A stretch of DNA of 64,000 nt from Methylomonas methanica MC09 (GTDB lineage Bacteria > Pseudomonadota > Gammaproteobacteria > Methylococcales > Methylomonadaceae). Each line of letters starts with the position of its first letter. Within the stretch, counting starts at the first letter, position 1. The position numbers and the translations under genes are program-made. The DNA is taken from assembly GCF_000214665.1 (NCBI RefSeq), contig NC_015572.1, positions 4,987,682 through 5,051,681 on the forward strand, given 5' to 3'. The notes under the pieces are model-generated. The model saw nothing but the letters and a program-made list of their open reading frames with translations. It made no database searches and was not told the DNA's origin. Below, in pieces: positions 8,966-54,731 of this stretch.

Positions 8966-9478
8966 ATGAGTAATAATATTCAACAAGCTCCCATTTTACT
9001 AAATCGTGATAATTTTTTCCGTCAAATGCTTCGTCATCTTTCAGGAACATTGCAAGACGTTATCGGCTTACACGAAGCAGAAGGTTTTATCGCCCTCGTA
9101 GGTCAGAAAATCGGTGATGAAATCAACCAAGAATATCTGCAAGCATTGCAACTTGATCGTCTGAATAAAACGCAAGTGGCGGAAGTGCTTGTCGATTTAA
9201 AGAAACGTATCCAAGGGGATTTTTACGTCATCGAAGAGACCGATCATAAAATTGTGCTTGGTAATCGCCAGTGTCCGTTCGGAGATAAGGTAATTGGCCG
9301 AGAAGCGCTATGCATGATGACTTCAAATGTCTTTGGAGTTATTGCCGCGGAAAATTTAAGTTACGTTAAAGTTAATATTGATGAGTCCATCGCGCGGGGG
9401 CACTCTGGCTGTAAGGTCACGTTATATTTTGATCCGGACTCTTCGGTTGAAGGAATTGAATACTATGGGCCCGAATAA
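8966..9478 (+). CDS. MetOD1-type regulatory sensor domain protein
   Basis: A 170-residue cytoplasmic protein resembling the methanogen output domain 1 (MetOD1) family, usually found in signalling proteins. Three cysteines sit in the conserved core: GNRQCPFGDKV, GREALCMMTSNVFG and RGHSGCKVTLYF. Such a spaced triad could bind a metal or iron-sulfur cluster or react to redox change (inference). The N-terminal half is helical. The ATG at 8966 is preferred over an in-frame start at 8936 because GTGGAA lies upstream of it. Its last 14 bases overlap the downstream diguanylate cyclase gene, so the pair is translationally coupled and the protein probably controls that enzyme. Confidence 0.7.
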   Translation: MSNNIQQAPILLNRDNFFRQMLRHLSGTLQDVIGLHEAEGFIALVGQKIGDEINQEYLQALQLDRLNKTQVAEVLVDLKKRIQGDFYVIEETDHKIVLGNRQCPFGDKVIGREALCMMTSNVFGVIAAENLSYVKVNIDESIARGHSGCKVTLYFDPDSSVEGIEYYGPE

Positions 9479-10427
9479 TGAGATATCGGATGAAACGGCA
9501 AATTTTTTGGACGCTTATTCATTACCGTCCGGGGTAATGAATGCGGAAGGGTATTGGCTCTTTAAGAATTTAGCCCTCAAGGAATATCTGGCCCCTCTCG
9601 ATGAAGAATGTTTTTTTGCTCTTCTGAAAGATAGGATGCAAGAAAGCGCTGTAAAAAAACTGATCATGCGAAACAAGCGTGTTCAGCTAGTCGAGGCTAA
9701 GTTAGTAGCAAATATCACAAATATGATCGCTTGCTGCACACGTATTGATCTCGCTAATTTTAGTCATCCTATTTACCTCATTGAGCTCCATACACGCGCA
9801 CAGCGTTTACATGCTTTTTCATCGTTAAATCGCTTGCACCTGGAACAAAACAAGCATGAAAAGAAAGTCTTAACGACCAACCTAAAATTGCAGCGTGCTG
9901 TATCGGACTCGCATATCGATCCACTCACTAAAATCGCCAACCGTAGAGTTTTAGAAGAAGAGTTACCACCACTTTGGGAACAAGCGTTTCATTCGCGTTC
10001 GTCATTTTCATTTCTGATATTGGACTTAGATTTTTTTAAGAAAATTAACGATACATATGGGCATTCTCAAGGTGATAAGGCTCTTATTCTGGTGGCGGAA
10101 ACGCTAATGAATAATGTTAAACGAACCGGTGACATTGTGACCAGATTTGGAGGAGAGGAATTTGCCATACTTCTTCCCAATACCGATATCATCGGCGCGA
10201 AGTGGGTATCCGATAAGATACTTGTTGCAGTCAGGCAACTGAATATCCCCAATGAAGGCTCGGATGTTGCTAATTACCTGACTGTTTCAGTTGGGTGCTA
10301 TACAGCGACACCGTCTCACCTGGAAGCTGACATAACCAACATTATCCGCTTAGCCGATCTCTGTTTATATCAAGCTAAAAACAAGGGTAGGAACTGCGCT
10401 GTACATTATGAGGTTTCCCGGGATTAA
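9465..10427 (+). CDS. Diguanylate cyclase (GGDEF)
   Basis: Makes cyclic di-GMP from two GTP. The 321-residue protein has an N-terminal PAS-like/helical sensor half (1-140), a helical linker ending LKLQRAVSDSHIDPLTKIANRR, and a full GGDEF domain with the active-site variant RFGGEEFAILLP. An inhibitory I-site, RTGD, lies exactly five residues before GGEEF, so product inhibition is expected. The start at ATG 9465 overlaps the upstream MetOD1 gene by 14 bases. There is no EAL domain. The likely role is output of the paired cysteine protein's signal into c-di-GMP-controlled behaviour. Confidence 0.9.
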   Translation: MGPNNEISDETANFLDAYSLPSGVMNAEGYWLFKNLALKEYLAPLDEECFFALLKDRMQESAVKKLIMRNKRVQLVEAKLVANITNMIACCTRIDLANFSHPIYLIELHTRAQRLHAFSSLNRLHLEQNKHEKKVLTTNLKLQRAVSDSHIDPLTKIANRRVLEEELPPLWEQAFHSRSSFSFLILDLDFFKKINDTYGHSQGDKALILVAETLMNNVKRTGDIVTRFGGEEFAILLPNTDIIGAKWVSDKILVAVRQLNIPNEGSDVANYLTVSVGCYTATPSHLEADITNIIRLADLCLYQAKNKGRNCAVHYEVSRD

Positions 10428-10438
10428 CAGAACTCATA

Positions 10439-10474
10439 AAATCCAACTAATCACACAGTTAATTGGGTGGATTT
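10439..10474 (+). terminator. Hairpin after the diguanylate cyclase gene
   Basis: Arms AAATCCAACTAAT and ATTGGGTGGATTT pair over 13 positions with two mismatches around a 10-base loop, 11 bases past the stop. The T-run is poor (AGTTTA). It also marks the left border of the cassette array; no good attC could be found here for the last cassette. Confidence 0.4.
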
Positions 10475-10492
10475 AGTTTAAAGCTGCCGGCT

Positions 10493-10801
10493 TTAGCCAC
10501 TCCCGTTTGAATGACGGGTTAGCCATTTGAGCAACCCGAAAGCAACAGCCCACCAAATTAAGAAGAAAACGCCGCCGAGAATAATTAGATGAGAGCGCAA
10601 TGGCGGAATAAAGGCGGCAAGAATTGGGGCGGCGATGAACTCGCCGTGGCCTGAAACTATGATGAAGCCAAGGCCCAGTGCGGAACAAATCGCCCTCAGA
10701 TGCAACCTTATTTGAGCGGACGAGATCACTCCGGTAATACCCCAAGCGCATGCAAACAACAGTGCGCCATAAACAAAAAGATGAATTTGCTCGATGCGCA
10801 T
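10493..10801 (-). CDS. Cassette-encoded small membrane protein, 102 aa
   Basis: No named function. Hydropathy read by eye gives three membrane segments (about residues 8-28, 36-62 and 72-93) with a short basic C-terminal tail KWLTRHSNGSG. It starts MRIEQIHLFVYGALLFACAWG. The gene immediately follows an attC site and is the last in the cassette array, lying against the hairpin of the diguanylate cyclase gene. Single-gene cassettes encoding small unknown membrane proteins are frequent in chromosomal integrons. It probably depends on read-through or a promoter from upstream cassettes. Confidence 0.65.
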   Translation of the reverse strand: MRIEQIHLFVYGALLFACAWGITGVISSAQIRLHLRAICSALGLGFIIVSGHGEFIAAPILAAFIPPLRSHLIILGGVFFLIWWAVAFGLLKWLTRHSNGSG

Positions 10802-10820
10802 ATCAGTTAGTACCGGATAT

Positions 10821-10864
10821 GGCTAACGCAAAGCCAAGCCGACCGCCGAAGCAGCGGGTTAGGC
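10821..10864 (-). repeat. attC site 1 (short, 44 bp)
   Basis: Read on the minus strand it begins GCCTAAC (R'') and ends GTTAGCC (R'), enclosing a GC-rich imperfect stem. It lies exactly between two cassette genes, 4 bases past the stop of the 110-codon gene. It is shorter than most attC sites and could be partly degraded. Confidence 0.65.
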
Positions 10865-10867
10865 GAT

Positions 10868-11200
10868 TTAATCACCATTGCCAATACCTAAATCCCAGAG
10901 TACATCGCATTTGCTACAGTATGCGCTCCAATTGTCTGGAGTTTCCTTTCTTGAGCTCTTGGTTTTTGTTTTGCCATGACAGGTTGGGCATGGAACATGG
11001 TATAGCTTATAAAAGGACATGGCGAAAACTAGGCAGCCATATCCAAGAATGAAAATTACTATGTACCCAATAAGATAGCTATTGCGCGTTAAAAACTCAT
11101 TAGCCATATAGGCACCTGCCTGACTGGCGATTAGTAGCAACCCAAGAAAAATAAAGTGTTTTTTGGGGATGGCAAAATTTTCATGTTTTTTAACACGCAT
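10868..11200 (-). CDS. Cassette-encoded membrane protein with zinc-ribbon-like cysteines
   Basis: A 110-residue protein of unknown function. It has a basic N-terminus (MRVKKHENF), two membrane segments (about 16-36 and 42-64), then a cytoplasmic or external tail with two CxxC pairs, PCPTCHG and YCSKCD, about 25 residues apart, which together could hold one zinc ion. The cassette layout is clear, with attC sites on both sides. There is no recognisable family and no obvious ribosome site. The zinc-ribbon reading is inference from the cysteine spacing only. Confidence 0.65.
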   Translation of the reverse strand: MRVKKHENFAIPKKHFIFLGLLLIASQAGAYMANEFLTRNSYLIGYIVIFILGYGCLVFAMSFYKLYHVPCPTCHGKTKTKSSRKETPDNWSAYCSKCDVLWDLGIGNGD

Positions 11201-11219
11201 AGCGAAAATTTTATGTTCC

Positions 11220-11295
11220 GTCTAACGCTGTAAATAACCTGACGCGAAAAGCGCACAGCAGTTTTTGCGGTCCGAGTTAATTTGCCTTGTTATGA
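11220..11295 (-). repeat. attC site 2
   Basis: 76 bp. On the minus strand it runs from TCATAAC (R'', containing the TAA stop of the acetyltransferase gene) to GTTAGAC (R'), with the common AACAAGGC and GCGTTAG flanks. The inner part is imperfectly palindromic (AAAACTGCTGTGCGC / GCGCACAGCAG). This is a classic cassette junction. Confidence 0.8.
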
Positions 11296-11727
11296 GTTCC
11301 ATTCCAATTTGTAAAACGCCTTATCTTCATCAAACTGTTTAAAACCCAATTTAATGTAAAAGTGCTTGACTGGATTAGCTTTTATAACACTAAGTTTTAA
11401 AGGCAACGACTTCTTTCTGGCTGTATCTTGAAGGTATTCGATTATTCTTCTTCCTATGCCTTGCTGCTGGTACTCTGGTTTGATAATGATAATTTCCAAC
11501 CAAAAGTGGTCGTCATTTTGATTTAAGACGAACCCGCCAAATTCCTTACGCCCTGCACTGATTATTATCCACTTCGTTGGGCTTAAGTTCTCGCAAAACC
11601 CTTTTCTTTGAAATGACTCATCCCAGCCCCAAGTAGCCTCAATACATGGCTTCATTGTTTTACAGTAAAGATCATAAAGCCATTCCTGATCTCTCTGTTC
11701 ACCATTCCTAATCTGGTAACCTTTCAT
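11290..11727 (-). CDS. GNAT-family N-acetyltransferase (cassette cargo)
   Basis: A 145-residue acetyl-CoA-dependent acyltransferase. The GNAT core is visible: FWLEIIIIKPEYQQQGIGRRIIEYLQD (beta4, the Q/RxxGxG/A pantetheine loop QQQGIG, helix alpha3), then LKLSVIKANPVKHFYIKLGFKQ (beta5 and alpha4). The substrate is unknown; cassette GNATs include antibiotic- and toxin-modifying enzymes, but nothing here points to one. ATG 11727 gives the usual family length; ATG 11742, inside the attC box, would add five residues. The stop codon lies within attC 2. Confidence 0.85.
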   Translation of the reverse strand: MKGYQIRNGEQRDQEWLYDLYCKTMKPCIEATWGWDESFQRKGFCENLSPTKWIIISAGRKEFGGFVLNQNDDHFWLEIIIIKPEYQQQGIGRRIIEYLQDTARKKSLPLKLSVIKANPVKHFYIKLGFKQFDEDKAFYKLEWNS

Positions 11728-11739
11728 GGTTTCACGACT

Positions 11740-11855
11740 CATAACGCCCCAATCACCGGACCGGCGAAGTGGAGCAATTTTTGTGGTACAAGAGCGGAGC
11801 GATACCACAAAAATTGTGGAGCGTAGCTGGCTCCGCGTGCATTGGCTTGTTATGC
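11740..11855 (-). repeat. attC site 3 (long)
   Basis: 116 bp. On the minus strand it begins GCATAACAAGCC and ends GGGCGTTATGAG. The interior is a long imperfect hairpin: CCACAATTTTTGTGGTA is followed by TACCACAAAAATTG about 15 bases on. Size and form recall the long attC repeats of chromosomal integrons such as those of Vibrio. Confidence 0.8.
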
Positions 11856-11890
11856 GCATGTTGCACTTGTAAGTTGATTTTAGGCTCTGT

Positions 11891-12226
11891 CTATTCTGAA
11901 AAATATTGATATTTCGATACAATGTTTCCCTCTTTAGAAAACCCGAAACCATATGCATGCAGGAAAAAATTGTATCTTATCCAATCAACACATTCGCCTT
12001 TATTATCACCCAACAAATGTCCATCATCACCCCACCAAAGCCATTTTCCACATTGCTCGCTACCATCAGGTTTACCTAGCACTGCGATAATCGATTTTTT
12101 ACTGTCCCCCATTTTTGCCGATTTGAAAACTCTATCAACTTTGTTCTCACTATAAAAACACAGAGAAGGATAGATGCCTAAAATAGCAAGTGTTAGTAGC
12201 ACAACAATTATTTTATTTTTTTTCAT
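11891..12226 (-). CDS. Cassette-encoded exported or membrane-anchored protein, 111 aa
   Basis: No named function. The N-terminus MKKNKIIVVLLTLAILGIYP is a signal peptide or single membrane anchor. The mature part has SAKMGDSKKSIIAVLGKPDG, resembling the start of the SmpA/OmlA-type BamE fold in which a G-D/M-S...V...LG-P motif is common; this is a weak resemblance only. A Trp-rich stretch KWLWWGDDGH follows. Flanked by attC sites 3 and 4, it is a single-gene cassette. Confidence 0.65.
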   Translation of the reverse strand: MKKNKIIVVLLTLAILGIYPSLCFYSENKVDRVFKSAKMGDSKKSIIAVLGKPDGSEQCGKWLWWGDDGHLLGDNKGECVDWIRYNFFLHAYGFGFSKEGNIVSKYQYFSE

Positions 12227-12264
12227 CCGCTAAATCTTTTGAACACTTCGATTAACGTTCGGCC

Positions 12265-12352
12265 GCATAACGATGAATATAACTGGCGGCTAAAAGTATT
12301 GCGTCGATAGGAGCAATGCTTTTAGCCGTCCGCGTTAATATTTTTGTTAAAT
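12265..12352 (-). repeat. attC site 4
   Basis: 88 bp. On the minus strand it runs from ATTTAAC (R'') to GTTATGC (R'). The interior holds a long inverted repeat: GGCTAAAAGCATTG pairs with CAATACTTTTAGCC with one mismatch. It lies 11 bases from the stop of the next cassette gene. Confidence 0.78.
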
Positions 12353-12363
12353 TGTTTCAAATA

Positions 12364-12675
12364 TTAAAGAAAATTCCTATAAAATTTAATAGCGAATAAA
12401 ATAGCAAAAATACCGCCGACAGCAGAAAAAGATATTTGTACTATTGCATTAAATTCAGTTGATTTTTCAGCTAAGTAATCTCTATAAACTCTTAAACCAA
12501 CAGATAGCATTAAATTTGTGGCGAAAATAACCCATGCTAAAAGTGCAACATTCATTTCTTCAATAGTTAATTTTTCCCCCGTTTCTTTTGTACTTACAAT
12601 AAACATAAGAATTGAAGCTCCTGAAACCCAAAGAATATCAACTGCCCATTGTATTACCCTAAATTTATTTATCAT
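12364..12675 (-). CDS. Cassette-encoded membrane protein, 103 aa
   Basis: Unknown function. Three hydrophobic segments are seen (about 7-27, 41-62 and 78-98), with a short basic C-terminus KFYRNFL. It is strongly AT-rich compared with the chromosomal genes around the array, which fits foreign cassette origin. ATG 12675 is preferred to one six codons upstream because it starts the first amphipathic stretch. Just upstream lie two copies of a palindromic element (12701 and 12772) that could control it. Confidence 0.6.
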   Translation of the reverse strand: MINKFRVIQWAVDILWVSGASILMFIVSTKETGEKLTIEEMNVALLAWVIFATNLMLSVGLRVYRDYLAEKSTEFNAIVQISFSAVGGIFAILFAIKFYRNFL

Positions 12676-12700
12676 ACATGGAAATTTAACCATTGATTAT

Positions 12701-12787
12701 CAGGCAAACATGCCTGCATATTCGGAAAATCGGGTATATTTGCCTTGATAACTTGATATTAGCCGGTAAATCAGGCAAATTTGCCTG
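12701..12787. promoter_or_regulatory. Two palindromic boxes, CAGGCAAAYRTGCCTG type
   Basis: CAGGCAAACATGCCTG (12701-12716) and the perfect palindrome CAGGCAAATTTGCCTG (12772-12787) share the surrounding context AT-box-CRTATT and lie 71 bases apart, about seven DNA turns. A half site, ATTTGCCT, lies between them at about 12738. They sit 26 and 97 bases before the start of the 103-codon membrane protein. The arrangement suits an operator pair for a dimeric regulator; no regulator gene is adjacent. Confidence 0.45.
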
Positions 12788-12901
12788 CGTATTAATGCTT
12801 AGCGACTGACTATAGACGATAATGCGCCTCCGTCAAGCGCATCCAGTCGGCAACAAAAAAATACAGCCGATTTTTTGCAGTTCTTATTCTGACAACCCGG
12901 C

Positions 12902-13007
12902 TCAATCCCTTACGAACTCGGCGATCTTCTGCCGGTAGAACTCGTAGATCCGATTAGCGGTAGCGTAATCGGAGGAATGAAAGTCGTCACATTCGTACGA
13001 TTACGCA
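12902..13007 (-). pseudogene. C-terminal fragment of an unidentified gene
   Basis: An open frame of about 34 codons ends HSSDYATANRIYEFYRQKIAEF plus three residues and a TGA stop. It reads like the natural C-terminus of a protein, but a TAA stop lies in frame immediately upstream and no start is available. I take it as the remnant of a cassette gene cut by recombination. The parent family is not recognised. Confidence 0.35.
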
Positions 13008-13063
13008 AAGCTAAACGTCGCTAGGTAGGCTGTTTACACCGATGCGGACATTGTGGTTAGTGG

Positions 13064-14047
13064 TTAGCGGTTTACGTCCACGACCACGCGTCCTCGAACT
13101 TCACCGTTGAGGAGCCGCGCAGCGAGGGGCATCACTTCGCTCAGGCCGATTTCGTTGCTGATCGCGGCCAGTTTCGAGATATCGAGATCGCTCCCCAATC
13201 GTCGCCATGCTTCCAGTCGCTCACGCCGGGGGCACATCACGCTGTCAATGCCTGCCAGCGTCACGCCACGCAGGATGAACGGCGCGACGGTGGCCGGGAA
13301 ATCCATGCCACCCGCCAGCCCACAAGCTGCGACGACGCCTCGATATTTGGTAGACGCGCAGACATTCGCAAGCGTATGGCTGCCCACGACATCCACCGCG
13401 CCGGCCCATCGCTCCTTGCCAAGGGGTTTGCCAGGTGTTTCGAATAGCGCGCGGTCCAACACCTCCACCGCGCCCAAGCTCGTGAGGTAATCAGCTTCCG
13501 CCGGCCTGCCGCTCACTGCGACGACTCTGAAGCCAAGCCGGGACAGAATCGCCGTGGCCACGCTGCCCACGCCGCCTGCGGCGCCAGTCACGAGAATCTC
13601 TCCATCGGAGGGCGTGACGCCGTGCCGCTCCAGCGTCAGCACGCAAAGCATCGCGGTGTAACCCGCGGTACCGATGGCCATCGCTTGTTGCGGCGTAAAC
13701 TGTTCCGGCAGCGGCACCAACCAGTCGCCGTTTATGCGCGCCTTTTGAGCAAGGCCGCCCCAGTGGGTTTCGCCGACTCCCCAGCCATTCAGGATCACCG
13801 AATCGCCGGTTTTGTAGTCGGGATGCGTCGAGTGCCCTACCGTCCCGGCCAGATCAATGCCGGGCACCATCGGAAACTTGCGCACCACCGGCCCCTTGCC
13901 CGTGATGGCCAGCGCGTCCTTGTAGTTGAGCGTCGAATGGCTCACCCGCACCGTCACATCGCCTTCGGGCAATCCTGCTTCGTCGAGGTCGGTTAGTGAC
14001 GCGCGGTAACCTGCTTCGTCTTTCTCAATCAAAATGCCTTTGAACAT
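13064..14047 (-). CDS. acuI: AcuI/YhdH-type medium-chain quinone/acrylyl-CoA reductase
   Basis: A 327-residue zinc-independent medium-chain dehydrogenase/reductase of the YhdH/AcuI group, which reduces acryloyl-CoA or related enoyl/quinone substrates with NADPH. Visible are the GroES-like N-terminal domain ([33 protein letters not shown]), the Rossmann motif [20 protein letters not shown] (about 152-171) and the C-terminal [11 protein letters not shown] segment typical of the group. It is GC-rich, unlike the AT-rich cassettes beside it, so it probably came from another donor. At almost 1 kb it is large for cassette cargo. An attC-like sequence lies on its 5' side and a degraded one possibly on its 3' side. 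Confidence 0.88.
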
Positions 14048-14105
14048 GGGTTTGTGTTTCTCCGTTTAGCTTAGATCAACCGCGGGTTAGCGATGCCAAC
14101 GTTAG

Positions 14106-14156
14106 CCATAACCGGCGCGTTGACCAAGATCGTCCGTGATGATGGCGTGGTTAGGG
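14106..14156 (-). repeat. Probable attC site 5 (imperfect)
   Basis: On the minus strand it runs from CCCTAAC to GTTATGG, about 51 bp, with an imperfect GC-rich interior. It sits in the expected place, 10 bases past the stop of the 204-codon cassette gene and before acuI. A second GTTAGC/GTTGGC box follows at 14087-14105, so the exact right edge is uncertain. Confidence 0.5.
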
Positions 14157-14165
14157 ATCATTACT

Positions 14166-14780
14166 TTAATCAAAGCGAGCCCACTTGCTATTAGTAATGT
14201 TCTCACCTTCACCCACTGTGAAACTACACTCGTCTGAATTTAACCAGCGGCCAAAGGATTCGAAGTCTTGCACACGATGAAGCTCGGGCAGCGGGCTTCT
14301 TTGTGGTTCTGAGAAGTCGAAGAATACAAGCTCGTATGGGCATGCCCAAAAACATCCTTCGACGGCGAGAGTTCGCCCATCTGGTGACGGGTGGACAGCC
14401 GCCCAGCAAAAACCGTGACCTTTGAATGCTTCCGCGGGAAAGGTAACGATGTTAGTACCAAGCGCCGGCTCGATAACGTTGTAGCCTTGGTAGTCTTCAC
14501 CACAAAGAAGAAACTCCCTTCCAGTCTGTTGTACCACCCAGGTAAACCAGAACATGCCGTAATTTCGTATGATATCGGTGATTACCTGTCCGGTTGCAAC
14601 GTACCGAAGTATACCTCGGCTGTAGTTCCATGAGTCTTTCCAACCGCTATAGGTCGAGATTTCTAGCGAAAAAACACCGGACGGCGAGACATGAACTTCA
14701 GTTGAGGTCTTATCCAGAAACATTTTTGCAAAATGTTCCAAGATTTCTTCTCGCCACTCTGTGTAGCTACTGATGGTCAT
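14166..14780 (-). CDS. Cassette-encoded hypothetical protein, 204 aa
   Basis: No named family. It is a soluble protein with many aromatic residues (SYSGWKDSWNYSRGILRYV, NYGMFWFTWVVQQTGREFLLCGEDYQGYNVIE) and a beta-rich central region with VHPSPDGRTLAVEGCFWACPYELVFFDFS. That segment recalls a propeller-like or immunity-protein-like repeat, but this is only an impression. There is no signal peptide. ATG 14780 is chosen over an upstream TTG that lies inside attC 6. The single-gene cassette layout is clear. Confidence 0.7.
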   Translation of the reverse strand: MTISSYTEWREEILEHFAKMFLDKTSTEVHVSPSGVFSLEISTYSGWKDSWNYSRGILRYVATGQVITDIIRNYGMFWFTWVVQQTGREFLLCGEDYQGYNVIEPALGTNIVTFPAEAFKGHGFCWAAVHPSPDGRTLAVEGCFWACPYELVFFDFSEPQRSPLPELHRVQDFESFGRWLNSDECSFTVGEGENITNSKWARFD

Positions 14781-14789
14781 GTTGATGAG

Positions 14790-14858
14790 CTCTAACGCCA
14801 AACTCAGCGGACTAATTGAGCGCAGCGAAATTTGATCCGCTGCAGTTTCTTGTTATGA
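14790..14858 (-). repeat. attC site 6
   Basis: 69 bp. On the minus strand it runs from TCATAAC (R'', containing the stop codon of the IS-split cassette gene) to GTTAGAG (R'). The interior AACTGCAGCGGATCAAATT and AGTCCGCTGAGTTTGGC form the usual imperfect stem. It is one of the most canonical sites in the array. Confidence 0.82.
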
Positions 14859-15373
14859 GCCGATACCAATTTCAGGCAACTCGGACAATAGCTCACTTAG
14901 CTCCACTTCTGGATTGAGGTTCTTGGCAATTTCTTCGCTAAATTCGCCATCAAAAACTCTCTCAACCAATGAAAGATCAATTTCTCTTTCATAGTATTCT
15001 GTTGCCCAAGCCTGGTAGTCATTGGGCATCCAGTTAGCTACGACCTCAAGACCGGCCAACCCTCTTACAGGGCCGCCATACTTTACCCAATCAGCCCCCT
15101 CCAAATACCAAATGCAGGAGGCTTTATCCATTGAGAAGGCAGGCTCAGTAACAAACTCACTGTAACCGGACGGTGCTCTAGATTTCGCCTCATCAAGATC
15201 GTGCATTTGACCGTCTTCTGGGCTAAAGCACTTATATGCGGCAAATCCTCCCGACATCCAAAGGAACCACTCTCCTCCACAGCCATCACGGAGAGACGCC
15301 ATCTCTTCGTTATCGGACCATTTAGAATTGTACGAGAAATAACGGTATTGCCACTCTTGCTCGATAATAGCAT

Positions 15374-16453
15374 CTAGTGTAACGTCCTCAACATTTCTTT
15401 AGCTTTGGCGACTTTGGTTAAGATGGCATCTGGAGTCGCCGTCCATTGATAAGGTTTTGGGTGAAGATTGCGATGATCAAGGTACTGCATGATAGCCTGC
15501 TTCAGCTCGTCGACGCTACGTAACACCCCACGCCGGATGCGTTCTTCGGTGATGTCCCGAAAGAATCGCTCAACCAAATTCACCCAGGATGCCGACGTCG
15601 GGGTAAAGTGCATCTGGAAGCGCGGATGCTTGTCCAGCCAGGCTTTCACGTTGGGATGCTTGTGAGTGGCGTAGTTGTCGACGATCAGGTGGACGGCTAA
15701 GTTTTTGTCGGTCCGACGGTCGAGTAGTTTCAGGAATTTCAAGAATTCATCGTTACGGTGTTTGGGTAAACATTCGCCGATCACCGTTCCTTCATGGACA
15801 TTAAGGGCGGCAAACAAGGTGGTGGTACCGTGGCGTTTGTAATCATGTGTCATCGTGCCGTTCTTGCCGGGTTTTATGGGTAAACCCGGTTGCGTGCGAT
15901 CCAGTGCCTGGATCTGGCTTTTCTCATCCACGGAAAACACGATGGCTTTCTCCGGCGGGTCCAAATACAGTCCCACCACGTCCCGTAACTTCTCTTCAAA
16001 CTGCGGGTCGTTCGAGACCTTGAAGCCCTTGACCCGATGCGGCTTTAGCTGGTGCTCCCGCCAAATGCGATGAACAGCCATACGTGAAATACCGACCTGC
16101 TCCGCCATTGTCCGGCAACTCCAGTGGGTGGCATGGGTCGGCTTGCCGGTCAGCGTCAACGTCAACACTTCCTGCACCTTCTCCACCGGCAATGGCGGCA
16201 CTCGCGAGGGCCGCGTCTTACCTTTTTTCAACCCATCGATACCGCACTCCACAAAACGCCGGCGCCATAAATTCAGCGTCGGCGCGCTGATCTTCAGGGT
16301 GTCCATGATCTCCTGCGAAGCTATTCGGTCCGCTGTCATCAATACAATCCGCGCCCGCAACGTCTGCTTCTCGTCTATCGCTCGGCTTTTTACCCACCGA
16401 TTCAACGTAGAACGGTCTTGTTCATTCAAATCAAGTTTCATTGGTGTTCTCAT
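15374..16453 (-). CDS. IS630-family transposase
   Basis: A 359-residue DDE transposase. The N-terminal helix-turn-helix (QEIMDTLKISAPTLNLWRRR) and a second winged helix (CRTMAEQVGISRMAVHRIWRE) bind the ends. The catalytic core shows VFSVDEKSQIQALDRTQPG (first Asp), VHLIVDNYATHKHPNVKAW (second Asp) and ASWVNLVERFFRDITEERI (Glu). Length and motifs match intact IS630 members, so it is probably active. The TAG stop is made of the duplicated target TA plus the next host base, so the reading frame ends outside the element. A shorter start at ATG 16441 is possible. Confidence 0.93.
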   Translation of the reverse strand: MRTPMKLDLNEQDRSTLNRWVKSRAIDEKQTLRARIVLMTADRIASQEIMDTLKISAPTLNLWRRRFVECGIDGLKKGKTRPSRVPPLPVEKVQEVLTLTLTGKPTHATHWSCRTMAEQVGISRMAVHRIWREHQLKPHRVKGFKVSNDPQFEEKLRDVVGLYLDPPEKAIVFSVDEKSQIQALDRTQPGLPIKPGKNGTMTHDYKRHGTTTLFAALNVHEGTVIGECLPKHRNDEFLKFLKLLDRRTDKNLAVHLIVDNYATHKHPNVKAWLDKHPRFQMHFTPTSASWVNLVERFFRDITEERIRRGVLRSVDELKQAIMQYLDHRNLHPKPYQWTATPDAILTKVAKAKEMLRTLH

Positions 16454-16499
16454 GGGGACCAATTCTACTATTAATAATGCTTTGTCGGGGACGTTACAC
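15377..16499 (-). mobile_element. IS630-family insertion sequence, 1123 bp
   Basis: The ends are inverted repeats GTGTAACGTCC(T/C)C, with one mismatch over 13 bp, bordered by a TA target duplication (15375-15376 and 16500-16501) inside a CTAG target, as is known for IS630. It contains one intact transposase and no cargo. It was inserted after the cassette had joined the array, since attC sites remain on both sides of the split gene. Confidence 0.92.
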
Positions 16500-16551
16500 T
16501 AGAAGAGCCAGTGATTTTAATTTATTGCGCAATCGTTCGATCATGACTCAC

Positions 16552-16659
16552 TCATAACGCTAAGCTAAATTGCAGTTTTGGGGGAGCCTTTTTGTGATAG
16601 TGTTTTTTACCACAAAAAGAAGCGACGGAAAAACTGTCAATTTGAGCGTATTGTTAGTT
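16552..16659 (-). repeat. attC site 7
   Basis: 108 bp. On the minus strand it runs from AACTAAC (R'', containing the TAA stop of the 255-codon gene) to GTTATGA (R'). The interior is a long imperfect palindrome: GACAGTTTTTCC and TTTTTGTGGTAAAAAACACTATCACAAAAAGG form stems. It is the most upstream attC found. Confidence 0.78.
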
Positions 16660-17421
16660 TCTTTTGTATATAGATGGGTTGCGCCAATTCCAGTGGACTT
16701 GCTTATAAGCTTCGTTTTCACTTGCCACAAAGGAATTTATGTAGTCTTGCTCAATTAAGTTTTTGTTTTTCTCCAACTCCTCAATGTCCATAGGCGTTAA
16801 CGTAAACTCATATTCATTATCAACTAGATTAAAAGACTCTGGAGATTCAAGTTGAAAAGCAACATTATATTTCCCTGATTTCCAAGTAAAAGCATGCTTA
16901 ATGTAGTTGTGAACATCAATAGCTTCTTGACATTTTAAAAATTTCAGAGGGTCGTAACCCTCTTGCTCTCTATCGTAAGAAAGTCGCTTTATTGCCTTGT
17001 CTTCGATGTCTTTCTTTCCCGCAACGAAAGAAATTTCTTGGCATTGAATTATTCGTTCTTCAACTTCTCGCTGGCTCAATTTAATAGCAAGCACAGAGTT
17101 TTCCTTCTCATAGGGTATGGGACCATCGTTGGTATGCATTTTCATTACTTGCTGTCTTAGGCCCTGCCACTCATAGGTTTTTTCTTCCCCACTCTCGTGA
17201 GTAACATTTATTCTAAAATTTGAGATCACTACATCACGGTTTTTTACTGAAAATGCGATACGCATATTGAATATCGGGCCATATGTGGTGAATCCGATTT
17301 CAGCAATTTTTTGTGTGATTATCCTTACTTCGGGCTTGGTAAAGTATGCCTTAATTAAGGAGATCAAATGAGGAGTCCATGCTAAGGCCCCTAATATTGC
17401 TACCCAGTCAATAATCTTCAA
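16654..17421 (-). CDS. Cassette-encoded hypothetical protein, 255 aa
   Basis: Unknown function. The N-terminus MKIIDWVAILGALAWTPHLISL is probably a membrane anchor. The rest is a soluble domain with beta strands early (IAEIGFTTYGPIFNMRIAFSVKNRDVVISNFRINVTHESGEEKTYEW), which resembles an Ig-like or C2-like sandwich, followed by a charged helical part. It is AT-rich. Its stop lies in attC 7. As the most upstream cassette it would be nearest the integrase side in a complete integron, but there is no integrase upstream. An ACCTCCTATG stretch upstream, read on the minus strand as AGGAGGTTGAAT before the ATG, is a strong ribosome site. Confidence 0.72.
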   Translation of the reverse strand: MKIIDWVAILGALAWTPHLISLIKAYFTKPEVRIITQKIAEIGFTTYGPIFNMRIAFSVKNRDVVISNFRINVTHESGEEKTYEWQGLRQQVMKMHTNDGPIPYEKENSVLAIKLSQREVEERIIQCQEISFVAGKKDIEDKAIKRLSYDREQEGYDPLKFLKCQEAIDVHNYIKHAFTWKSGKYNVAFQLESPESFNLVDNEYEFTLTPMDIEELEKNKNLIEQDYINSFVASENEAYKQVHWNWRNPSIYKRN

Positions 17422-17901
17422 TTCAACCTCCTATGCTTGGTACTCTGTGAAACTAACTAGTTATTAGATAGTTTCTGTATATATACAAGAAAAGTTCCTA
17501 TTCAAGGTAATCTATTGATCTGCATATGATTTTCCATTCTGTATATCATTTTATGATCAAAAATAATGGCGGGTGATATTCTTATCGATGCCATTGAATC
17601 ACTTCGACCGATAGACTGCAACGAACCCGTTTCACCCTGCCCGTTCCGAAAGAGTGATTTCGGCCGACTTTCATCCGTCGGACTGATAGGTTTTCAAAGC
17701 CGATTCCGGCAGTTGATCACCCGCAAGGGCTACCATTCAGACATCGGCGTTCCCAACAGCGCTTAATTGTTGTAAACGCGACATACCAGGGCAGTATTTT
17801 TATATAAAAAATCAATTGCTTAAAAATTGGCGCAAATTGTGAATCACCTGAGTATGCGGAAATCAACGCGGTGTTCGCTTGCTTATCATTTTACGGTGCT
17901 T
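17422..17901. other. Non-coding stretch at the upstream edge of the cassette array
   Basis: About 480 bases in which I find no integrase, no attI and no convincing gene. A 66-codon plus-strand ORF (17566-17766) is Cys/Pro/Arg-rich with no ribosome site, and I regard it as chance. The first 140 bases are AT-rich and carry the promoter region of the 255-codon cassette gene. The GC-richer part, 17570-17770, differs in composition and may be a decayed foreign piece. Confidence 0.45.
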
Positions 17902-18219
17902 ATGTCTGAAATCATCCAGTTTCCCGTTTCCAACAAACAACAGAAGTCGGATCTCGATGCGTTTATCGACGACGCACTAAAAACCATACCGCGCCAAGAC
18001 AGAGAAAAACTCAGATTCGAGCTGATCAAAACGATAGACAGCTACGATAGCTTTTTTAGCGAATGGTCCTTGAGTCTGCCCGCGGACAGTAGCGAAACAC
18101 TTAGAAAACAAATCTACGATATCGCCCATCAGAAACACAATCGGAAAATACGTATGCTGAAAGACATTATGCGATTAACCATTAAAGTGCTGGTTGCGGA
18201 ATACCGGTTGCGAAAGTAA
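17902..18219 (+). CDS. Hypothetical protein, 105 aa
   Basis: Not recognised. From ATG 17902 the product is a soluble, largely helical, basic protein starting MSEIIQFPVSN and ending RLTIKVLVAEYRLRK. It lies 96 bases before the NifX-like gene on the same strand and could form a unit with it. An upstream in-frame start at 17827 has no ribosome site and would add a Cys/Arg-rich unlikely tail. Confidence 0.6.
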   Translation: MSEIIQFPVSNKQQKSDLDAFIDDALKTIPRQDREKLRFELIKTIDSYDSFFSEWSLSLPADSSETLRKQIYDIAHQKHNRKIRMLKDIMRLTIKVLVAEYRLRK

Positions 18220-54348: not shown

Positions 54349-54384
54349 GGGAAGGCTTTGCGAATTGCAAAAGAGAATAGAGAA

Positions 54385-54731
54385 AGAGTTGGCCTGTAAG
54401 CCGGGTTCTGTCGAGAACAGCCATTCATCTAGGCGGCAAGTCACCCTGCCGCTCAAGCAATCTACCCAGGCGCCGCGCGGGCCACGCGTATGCGCCTCTA
54501 TTTGATCTTGCTCCGGGTGGGGTTTTCCCTGCCACAGCTGTTACCAGCTGCGCGGTGCGCTCTTACCGCACCATTTCACCCTTACCGGGTTCTAAAAGAA
54601 CCAGGCGGTATATTTTCTGCGGCACTTTCCGTAGGCTCGCGCCTCCCAGGCATTACCTGGCACCCTGCCCTATGGAGCCCGGACTTTCCTCCCTTTCATT
54701 TGCATGAAACGGCGGCTGCTCGGCCAACTCT
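54385..54731 (-). ncRNA. rnpB: RNase P RNA
   Basis: The ribozyme subunit that removes 5' leaders from pre-tRNAs, a class A bacterial RNA. The 5' and 3' ends pair as the P1 stem: AGAGTTGGCC (54731-54722) with GGCCAACTCT (54394-54385). The conserved core GAGGAAAGTCCGGGCTCCAT, the loop GCCTGGGAGGCG, AGGGTGAAATGGTGCGGTAAGAGC and the downstream AGATGAATGGCTGTT and ACAGAACCCGGCTTACAG are all present. The size, about 347 bases, fits. A TATAAT box lies 8 bases upstream of the 5' end. Confidence 0.95.

Follow-up and report, generated by a model that had tools for sequence, protein, structure and literature searches.

Gene cassettes that stand in a row with no integrase gene beside them raise the question of how they came to be there. 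We analysed such a locus in Methylomonas methanica MC09, in a 64,000-nucleotide stretch (the window; bases 4987682-5051681 of the 5.05 Mb single-contig genome) where positions 10493-17421 are occupied by minus-strand open reading frames (ORFs), one of them the transposase of an insertion sequence (IS). A first-pass annotation had called this region a cluster of attC sites lacking integron-integrases (CALIN) with at least seven attC sites. The call holds, and the array reaches further to the right than had been stated, to 17639 and not 17421, as the attI site joined to the first cassette had been overlooked. We observed that the first cassette begins at the GTT core of a conserved element of ~190 bp (17451-17639 in the window), and that the sequence preceding it recurs ahead of other genes in relatives. 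From these and the following comparisons, we consider it likely that cassettes are loaded onto dispersed, multicopy attI sites, hereafter pads, which usually have no intI next to them.

By sequence comparison, the identity of the attI (through its linkage to intI), its dispersal, the sidedness of the attC sites and the differing first cassettes in pairs of loci that share a flank can be regarded as established. We infer that a single integrase, whether the genome's own, a past one or an incoming one, loads the pads in trans, and that the first half of the element drives expression.

The attI site ahead of the first cassette

The element was defined by a profile of 34 copies and falls into two halves, which lie in the window as follows.

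17558..17639, minus strand: half 1, the conserved block preceding attI (nhmmer profile; promoter-like TTGCNG-N17-TTCAAT)
17454..17557, minus strand: half 2, read as the attI, 104 nt with the GTTA core at its end (alignment A3; intI-adjacent homologues)
17451..17457, minus strand: junction GTTAGTT, attI core and start of the first cassette (7/7 reverse complement of the R'' box AACTAAC of the same cassette)

The consensus of half 1 reads cgACCCGTTGCGGTCTATCG..TGATTCAATGG.., and half 2 ends with ..GATATACGGAAACTATCTAATTACTAGTTA. By eye, the sequences diverge directly after GTTA, and an ATG often follows some tens of bases on. Half 2 was described by a model, R2 (104 positions, 33 copies), and the underlying alignment has 12 invariant and many nearly invariant columns. 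R2 matches the window copy with 77 bits (genome 5005135-5005231).

The identity of half 2 comes from its neighbours. The integrase of genome G016 (462 aa) has ~145 N-terminal residues without a Pfam match, followed by the usual domains; we refer to this type as the extended IntI. Its genes were noted at L190 (3549-4937, in G016), L221 and L222, with relatives in other genera at 55-57% identity. We compared by hand the R2 coordinates with those of a search using the G016 protein. Among the matches listed, at least seven loci in six genomes have an R2 match in the attI orientation at a distance of 30-32 bp from where an extended IntI, or an N-terminal piece of it, starts. The genes concerned are intact in G016, G172 and G098 and broken or partial in G067 (two loci), G040 and G185, and the element also lies near integrase fragments in G193, G064 and G012. 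This placement strongly indicates that half 2 is the attI of the extended IntI. The standard position beside intI is thus held by the homologous copies and not by the window copy; the other mark of an attI, a GTT core at which cassettes start, is present in the window at the junction listed above.

In attI1, the IntI binding sites consist of an inverted core pair and direct repeats; a repeat, GATATACAGAA / GATATACGGAA, is present in the consensus of the element. Half 2 also contains a short ORF after a ribosome-binding-like AGAAGG. It is open over 17 codons in 28/33 copies (the other two frames in 13/33 and 2/33), and its coding signal by codon position is weak (entropy 0.64, 0.75, 0.80). We take it to be comparable to the ORF-11 leader of attI1. 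Constructs without ORF-11 are named in the accessible part of PMC2791841. The last ~25 bp of the attI come in two types, AGAACCATCTAATTACTA and TTAACAGCTTAATAACTTG, which differ between species at one locus (L173, L209, L215 and L317, with a shared flank), as if part of the attI had been exchanged too.

Half 1 is perhaps a promoter. Its TTGCNG-N17-TTCAAT is conserved, with TTG in 46/49 copies when these are anchored on TTCAAT. A consensus promoter scanner found no promoter in the window copy, so that a sigma-70 promoter is unsupported there. Two further candidates were rejected: half 1 is not a hidden attC hairpin, as no conserved fold was seen (the sets for fold and conservation omit copies below 40 bits or without GATTCAATG), nor is it an independent abundant repeat in its own genome, where 6/6 pattern matches stand beside an R2 match. 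Some half-1 matches in G001, G004 and G016 have no R2 match among the matches listed, and the intI-adjacent copy of G016 (L190) has no half 1. On the plasmid of Methylomonas sp. AM2-LC (L351, 3984-4099), half 1 and the ribosome-binding part of half 2, with no attI core, sit directly ahead of a different reading frame.

Loot et al. 2024 reportedly found cassettes inserted at attG, away from the integron locus, and the cassettes described here likewise lie away from an integron locus. The window cassettes might therefore stand at ordinary attG sites, the shared sequence being a coincidental genomic repeat. Such insertion is known, but a conserved sequence of 104 nt in 33 copies, placed beside the extended intI at seven or more loci, is no degenerate site, and the junction bears a conserved attI where attG insertion would have a non-classical site without attI sequence. 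The attG sites are divergent from classical ones according to the accessible part of PMC12901181, whereas the site here is a conserved attI. We regard this explanation as very improbable.

Dispersal, loading and turnover of the pads

R2 matches were obtained in 62/201 genomes of the family and 17/29 genera, with up to 17 per genome (best 19 candidates per genome in the family set, best 13 in a sample of the order). In the order sample, 32/37 genomes of the genus had a match, and beyond the family only four weak ones appeared among the best 13 candidates per genome. The M. methanica genome itself has ten, seven strong and three weak. The pads are often kept at the same chromosomal place across relatives.

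Are these pads merely what remains of ordinary integrons, in which every attI originally had its own intI, later lost locus by locus, the cassettes being old residents? Just the 5' end of intI or some other fragment is indeed found by tblastn in L202, L211, L298, L304, L309 and L327, further remnants were seen by eye in L203, L204, L207 and L216, and the extended intI of the M. methanica genome is itself decaying. Yet among 116 distinct copies in 29 genomes, tblastn detected a complete or partial intI at a distance of up to 1.4 kb in only 7, and none in 109, of which at least four (the by-eye loci just named) keep a short stub. Many copies also have half 1, which is absent from the intI-adjacent L190, and first cassettes differ in 37/37 flank-sharing pairs (see below) whose upstream flanks are up to 96% identical. 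Decay of this kind is in our view unlikely as the general explanation.

The pads are followed by attC sites on the expected side. Two covariance models were used: R1, trained on the intI-adjacent attC sites of the M. methanica genome and too narrow, and R3, with 43 training sites from the two intI-adjacent arrays of that genome, dispersed loci and named integron loci, none being contributed by the window. R3 gave 132 matches in 124 fetched pad loci (E<=0.5 or E<=0.1 by batch; 25 rows, 24 and 1, sorted by hand), of which 123 lay on the cassette side and strand and 7 were mirror images of such sites; the remaining 2 fell at other places, in one case downstream of a neighbouring pad. As two loci had been fetched twice, these amount to 121 distinct sites in 122 loci, and 71 of the 122 have at least one attC. 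Nineteen of the 121 are R3 training sites that had originally been found by R1. With R1, whose training included no dispersed pad, 20 loci (L200-L219) with equal 5-kb flanks gave matches on the cassette side and strand in 16/16 cases, at 11/20 loci.

A cassette of a linear array begins with TTRRRY, following the cleaved G, and this start stems from the same circle as the R'' box of that cassette. An exact R'' counterpart of the junction 7-mer, together with an attC-like fold, was found within ~1.5 kb in 14/42 copies, compared with 2.0 on average and 7 at most in 30 permutations. Duplicate copies and two copies without GTT at the junction were omitted from this test.

Next, we compared pads across species. 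Loci were paired by their shared upstream flank, excluding the 200 nt before the junction; loci with <700 nt upstream, <300 nt downstream or an incomplete 3' end, pairs within one genome and pairs sharing <250 nt of flank were left out. This gave 37 pairs in 16 groups with 74-96% identity over 257-1212 nt, and it is in these pairs that the first cassette differs without exception. Without three pairs whose flanks are short or weak, 34 remain, with >=443 nt and >=83%. Mean ungapped identity was ~0.79 over the last 20 nt ahead of the junction; past it, two five-nt blocks gave 0.39 and 0.32, and from 10 nt onwards the values were 0.20-0.27. The break thus lies at the integrase core. In G001, a pad with different spacing (77%) probably corresponds in chromosomal position to that of the window. 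Conversely, the same first cassette was seen in different species at loci without a shared flank in four pairs, at 79-99% identity.

In one such case, L153/L154, half 1, attI and first cassette form a common block of 771 bp (99.1%) amid unrelated flanks in two species, bounded on the left by the edge of half 1 and on the right by the attC's R' box, so that whole pads can also move. It could be argued from this block, and from the two Methylomonas plasmids that carry half 1 without the attI end (one includes the start of half 2), that this element marks the end of a transposon, or of a unit like a miniature inverted-repeat transposable element, that transports cassettes, integrase recombination being secondary. 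However, the arrays do not end in an inverted half 1: where the element was mapped, 91 half-1 matches have its orientation and one, distant, is inverted (40 further matches fall in loci outside this set). On its right, the shared block ends with an attC R' box, that is, an integrase boundary, and the flank-sharing pairs diverge at the GTT core. We therefore hold a transposon-like unit to be improbable, though less so than attG insertion.

Integrases and a proposed mode of loading

A TIGR02249 search of the genome returned 13 matches (E<=0.001), none of them in the window, in agreement with the annotated lack of an integrase there. Genome-wide, there is one intact IntI at 1707876-1708820 (496 bits) and a second intI at 2725192-2726118, broken by an in-frame TAG, with its ORFs in two reading frames. 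The broken gene is a relative of the extended IntI (66%), whereas the intact protein is more distant from it (46%). The suggestion that the cassettes are moved by a distant integrase is plausible with these genes, the intact one at 1.708 Mb and the broken one of the other type at 2.725 Mb. At the first integron of this genome (L009, 8680-10841), an IS3-type element was seen by eye between the intact intI and its cassettes.

Loading of dispersed pads would work as follows. The cassettes would be joined by integron-integrase recombination at the GTT core onto an attI that lacks an adjacent integrase gene. This attI (half 2), mostly preceded by half 1, would act as a dispersed landing pad, with about ten copies in this genome and further copies in many relatives. 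The cognate enzyme would be the N-terminally extended IntI. Its gene directly adjoins this attI in some relatives and is present, though broken, in the M. methanica genome. Encoded elsewhere or arriving with foreign DNA, the enzyme would recombine circular cassettes with the pads as it does with its own attI.

Several observations weigh against this reading. All the evidence for it is comparative. The extended IntI of the M. methanica genome is broken, and the intact one is of the other type. G004, G007, G008, G011 and G018 have 6-11 pads and no IntI match at the thresholds used, although G004 and G011 retain intI fragments. No attC was found in 51/122 loci, in a fetched flank that was often just 1.5 kb. 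The 37 pairs are not independent of one another, three have short or weak flanks (window/G001, 77%; L205/L216, 329 nt; L301/L303, 257 nt), and one group includes several pads of one genome (L299, L300, L301), which makes "same locus" doubtful in its case. Within the attI, ungapped identity farther from the junction on the upstream side is just 0.49-0.74. Finally, the leader ORF of the window copy has seven codons, with a stop at codon 8.

A wider form of the proposal is a polycentric integron of the family Methylomonadaceae, whose members are probably methane-eating bacteria. Here one trans-acting extended IntI, either resident or brought in on foreign DNA, would swap cassettes at all pads, each made up of a promoter block, a short leader ORF and an attI, in up to 17 counted copies per genome. 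We regard the case for this form as evenly balanced. If true, many first-position cassettes would be expressed at once, rather than one array with a gradient, and the pads could give many cassettes strong parallel expression. Pads spread over a genome would explain the origin of some CALINs and show that cassette exchange continues where the integrase gene is absent. As the pads are short and conserved, they can be searched for in any genome, and comparisons of species would list the swapped cassettes.

How does this compare with known systems? The integron is described, in the portions of the literature at hand, as a platform that combines a cassette array with a single integrase gene, a single attI and a single promoter. 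A complete integron, with intI, attI and array together, is not what the window holds, as it has no intI match. CALINs are defined as attC sites without a nearby intI that are usable in trans (accessible parts of PMC12444791 and PMC9668308); the present array is like them in having several attC sites on one strand and no intI nearby, but differs from those accounts in opening at a conserved attI that is found again at many places across the genome and the family. The nearest precedent in the available texts is a CALIN of the Shewanella prophage M16-3 (PMC9892861, seen in part), an intI-less array that likewise starts at its own attI, of the type of the complete integron in the same prophage. 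It is, as described there, one case of two arrays on one prophage, whereas the pads are multicopy, family-wide and show turnover. Xanthomonas CALINs are similar in lacking intI and in keeping their chromosomal loci from species to species, but the accessible part of PMC12444791 reports no shared attI-like sequence at their edge. In delta-attI-type gene cassettes, attI sequence also lies away from intI; according to the excerpted account (PMC12901181), a piece of attI replaces the attC at the 3' end of the cassette there, whereas the arrays here have a full attI at their 5' edge. Among the titles and abstracts obtained by full-text search of the open-access PMC literature, none describes attI sites dispersed as a family, and none is a relevant paper on Methylomonas integrons.

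The array and its attC sites

The gene-cassette array with seven attC sites is real. An attC covariance search of the whole 64 kb, the check proposed with the first-pass annotation, gave with R3 (default filters, both strands, E<=10) seven matches in total, all on the minus strand and all within the array, scoring 15.5-40.2 bits (E 2.8e-6 to 0.33; 3/7 at E<0.05). With two or more attC sites in a row and no integron integrase nearby, the locus is a CALIN. Its features, from right to left, are listed below.

16654..17421, minus strand: cassette gene 1, 255 aa, without Pfam, NCBIfam or PADLOC match
16552..16659, minus strand: attC 1 (R3 26.6 bits, E 0.0017; fold z -4.2)
15377..16499, minus strand: IS630-family insertion sequence, inverted ends GTGTAACGTCC, TA on both sides, interrupting cassette gene 2
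15374-16462, minus strand: IS630 transposase (NF033545, 261.8 bits)
14853..15302, minus strand: cassette gene 2, 3' part (IS-interrupted), no family match
14790..14858, minus strand: attC 2 (R3 40.2 bits, E 2.8e-6; R1 34.8 bits)
14166..14801, minus strand: cassette gene 3 (211 aa), without significant family match
14094..14156, minus strand: attC 3 (R3 18.0 bits, E 0.096)
13064..14047, minus strand: cassette gene 4, acrylyl-CoA reductase AcuI (NF051456, 577 bits), own attC missing
12364..12693, minus strand: cassette gene 5 (109 aa), without family match; the cassette has lost its 5' boundary
12265..12352, minus strand: attC 4 (R3 21.9 bits, E 0.015; fold z -4.6)
11891..12226, minus strand: cassette gene 6, 111 aa, no family match
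11739..11855, minus strand: attC 5 (R3 15.5 bits, E 0.33; unfiltered 9.0 bits; fold z -4.2)
11290..11730, minus strand: cassette gene 7, GNAT acetyltransferase (PF13508, 45 bits)
11220..11295, minus strand: attC 6 (R3 16.5 bits, E 0.2; fold no better than shuffles)
10868..11200, minus strand: cassette gene 8, 110 aa, weakly CxxC zinc-ribbon-like (PF14205, 19.8 bits, under cut-off)
10821..10864, minus strand: attC 7, shortened, 44 nt (R3 19.0 bits, E 0.061; fold no better than shuffles)
10493..10801, minus strand: cassette gene 9, 102 aa, no family match, overlapping the truncated last attC
10486..10527, minus strand: last attC, truncated to its left arm and the R'' box GGCTAAC at 10518-10524 (8.6 bits and E 1 with R3 unfiltered)

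The cassette register was read by eye as the agreement of each R'' box with the first seven bases of its own cassette; GTT being invariant, four positions are informative. Seven cassettes have both ends, and their R'' box is the reverse complement of their own start at 7/7 bases in five (16654, 14853, 11891, 11290, 10493) and at 6/7 in two (14166, 10868). The stop codons of genes 16654, 14853 and 11290 lie within R'' boxes, as had been noticed earlier. The description as a same-strand array of genes without known function needs one amendment, since one such gene is the IS630 transposase that splits a cassette gene.

Other tests spoke against the array or bore on it less clearly. Folding on the bottom strand had been predicted: this is the more stable strand in 7/7 attC sites, by small margins, and 4/7 fold clearly better than shuffles, but 3/7 no better. 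A strict R-box scan recovered 0/7. A relaxed folding scan of the window gave 27 matches on both strands (10, 7, 12, 12 and 12 in five shuffles), a total little above the shuffles with many matches beyond the array, and was dropped as evidence on the window. R1 at default filters found 3/7 attC sites and one weak match elsewhere. When R3 was run unfiltered on 10001-18000, 6/7 attC sites headed the ranking and weaker chance matches also emerged; the site at 11739-11855 fell below two mirror matches, to a level near that of chance matches.

Between cassettes 4 and 5 the array is damaged. The AcuI cassette has no matching R'' box and cassette 12364 no matching start, so that material is missing between them. 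In the damaged stretch (12690-12800), several copies of the palindrome CAGGCAAATTTGCCTG and variants were seen by eye. At its left end, the array closes with the truncated attC (~10486-10527), a possible eighth site with 22-39 bp of similarity to integron loci; it resembles stretches of L073, L042 and L024. The left flank (9000-10430) has only short matches in the genus and is unconserved, so that no empty site can be demonstrated there.

PADLOC returned no match for the nine cassette proteins. With curated Rfam thresholds, the sole match in the window is an RNase P RNA class A at 54381-54731 (359.5 bits). The acuI cargo (13064-14047) has ~74% DNA identity to genes of Azonexus and Burkholderia.

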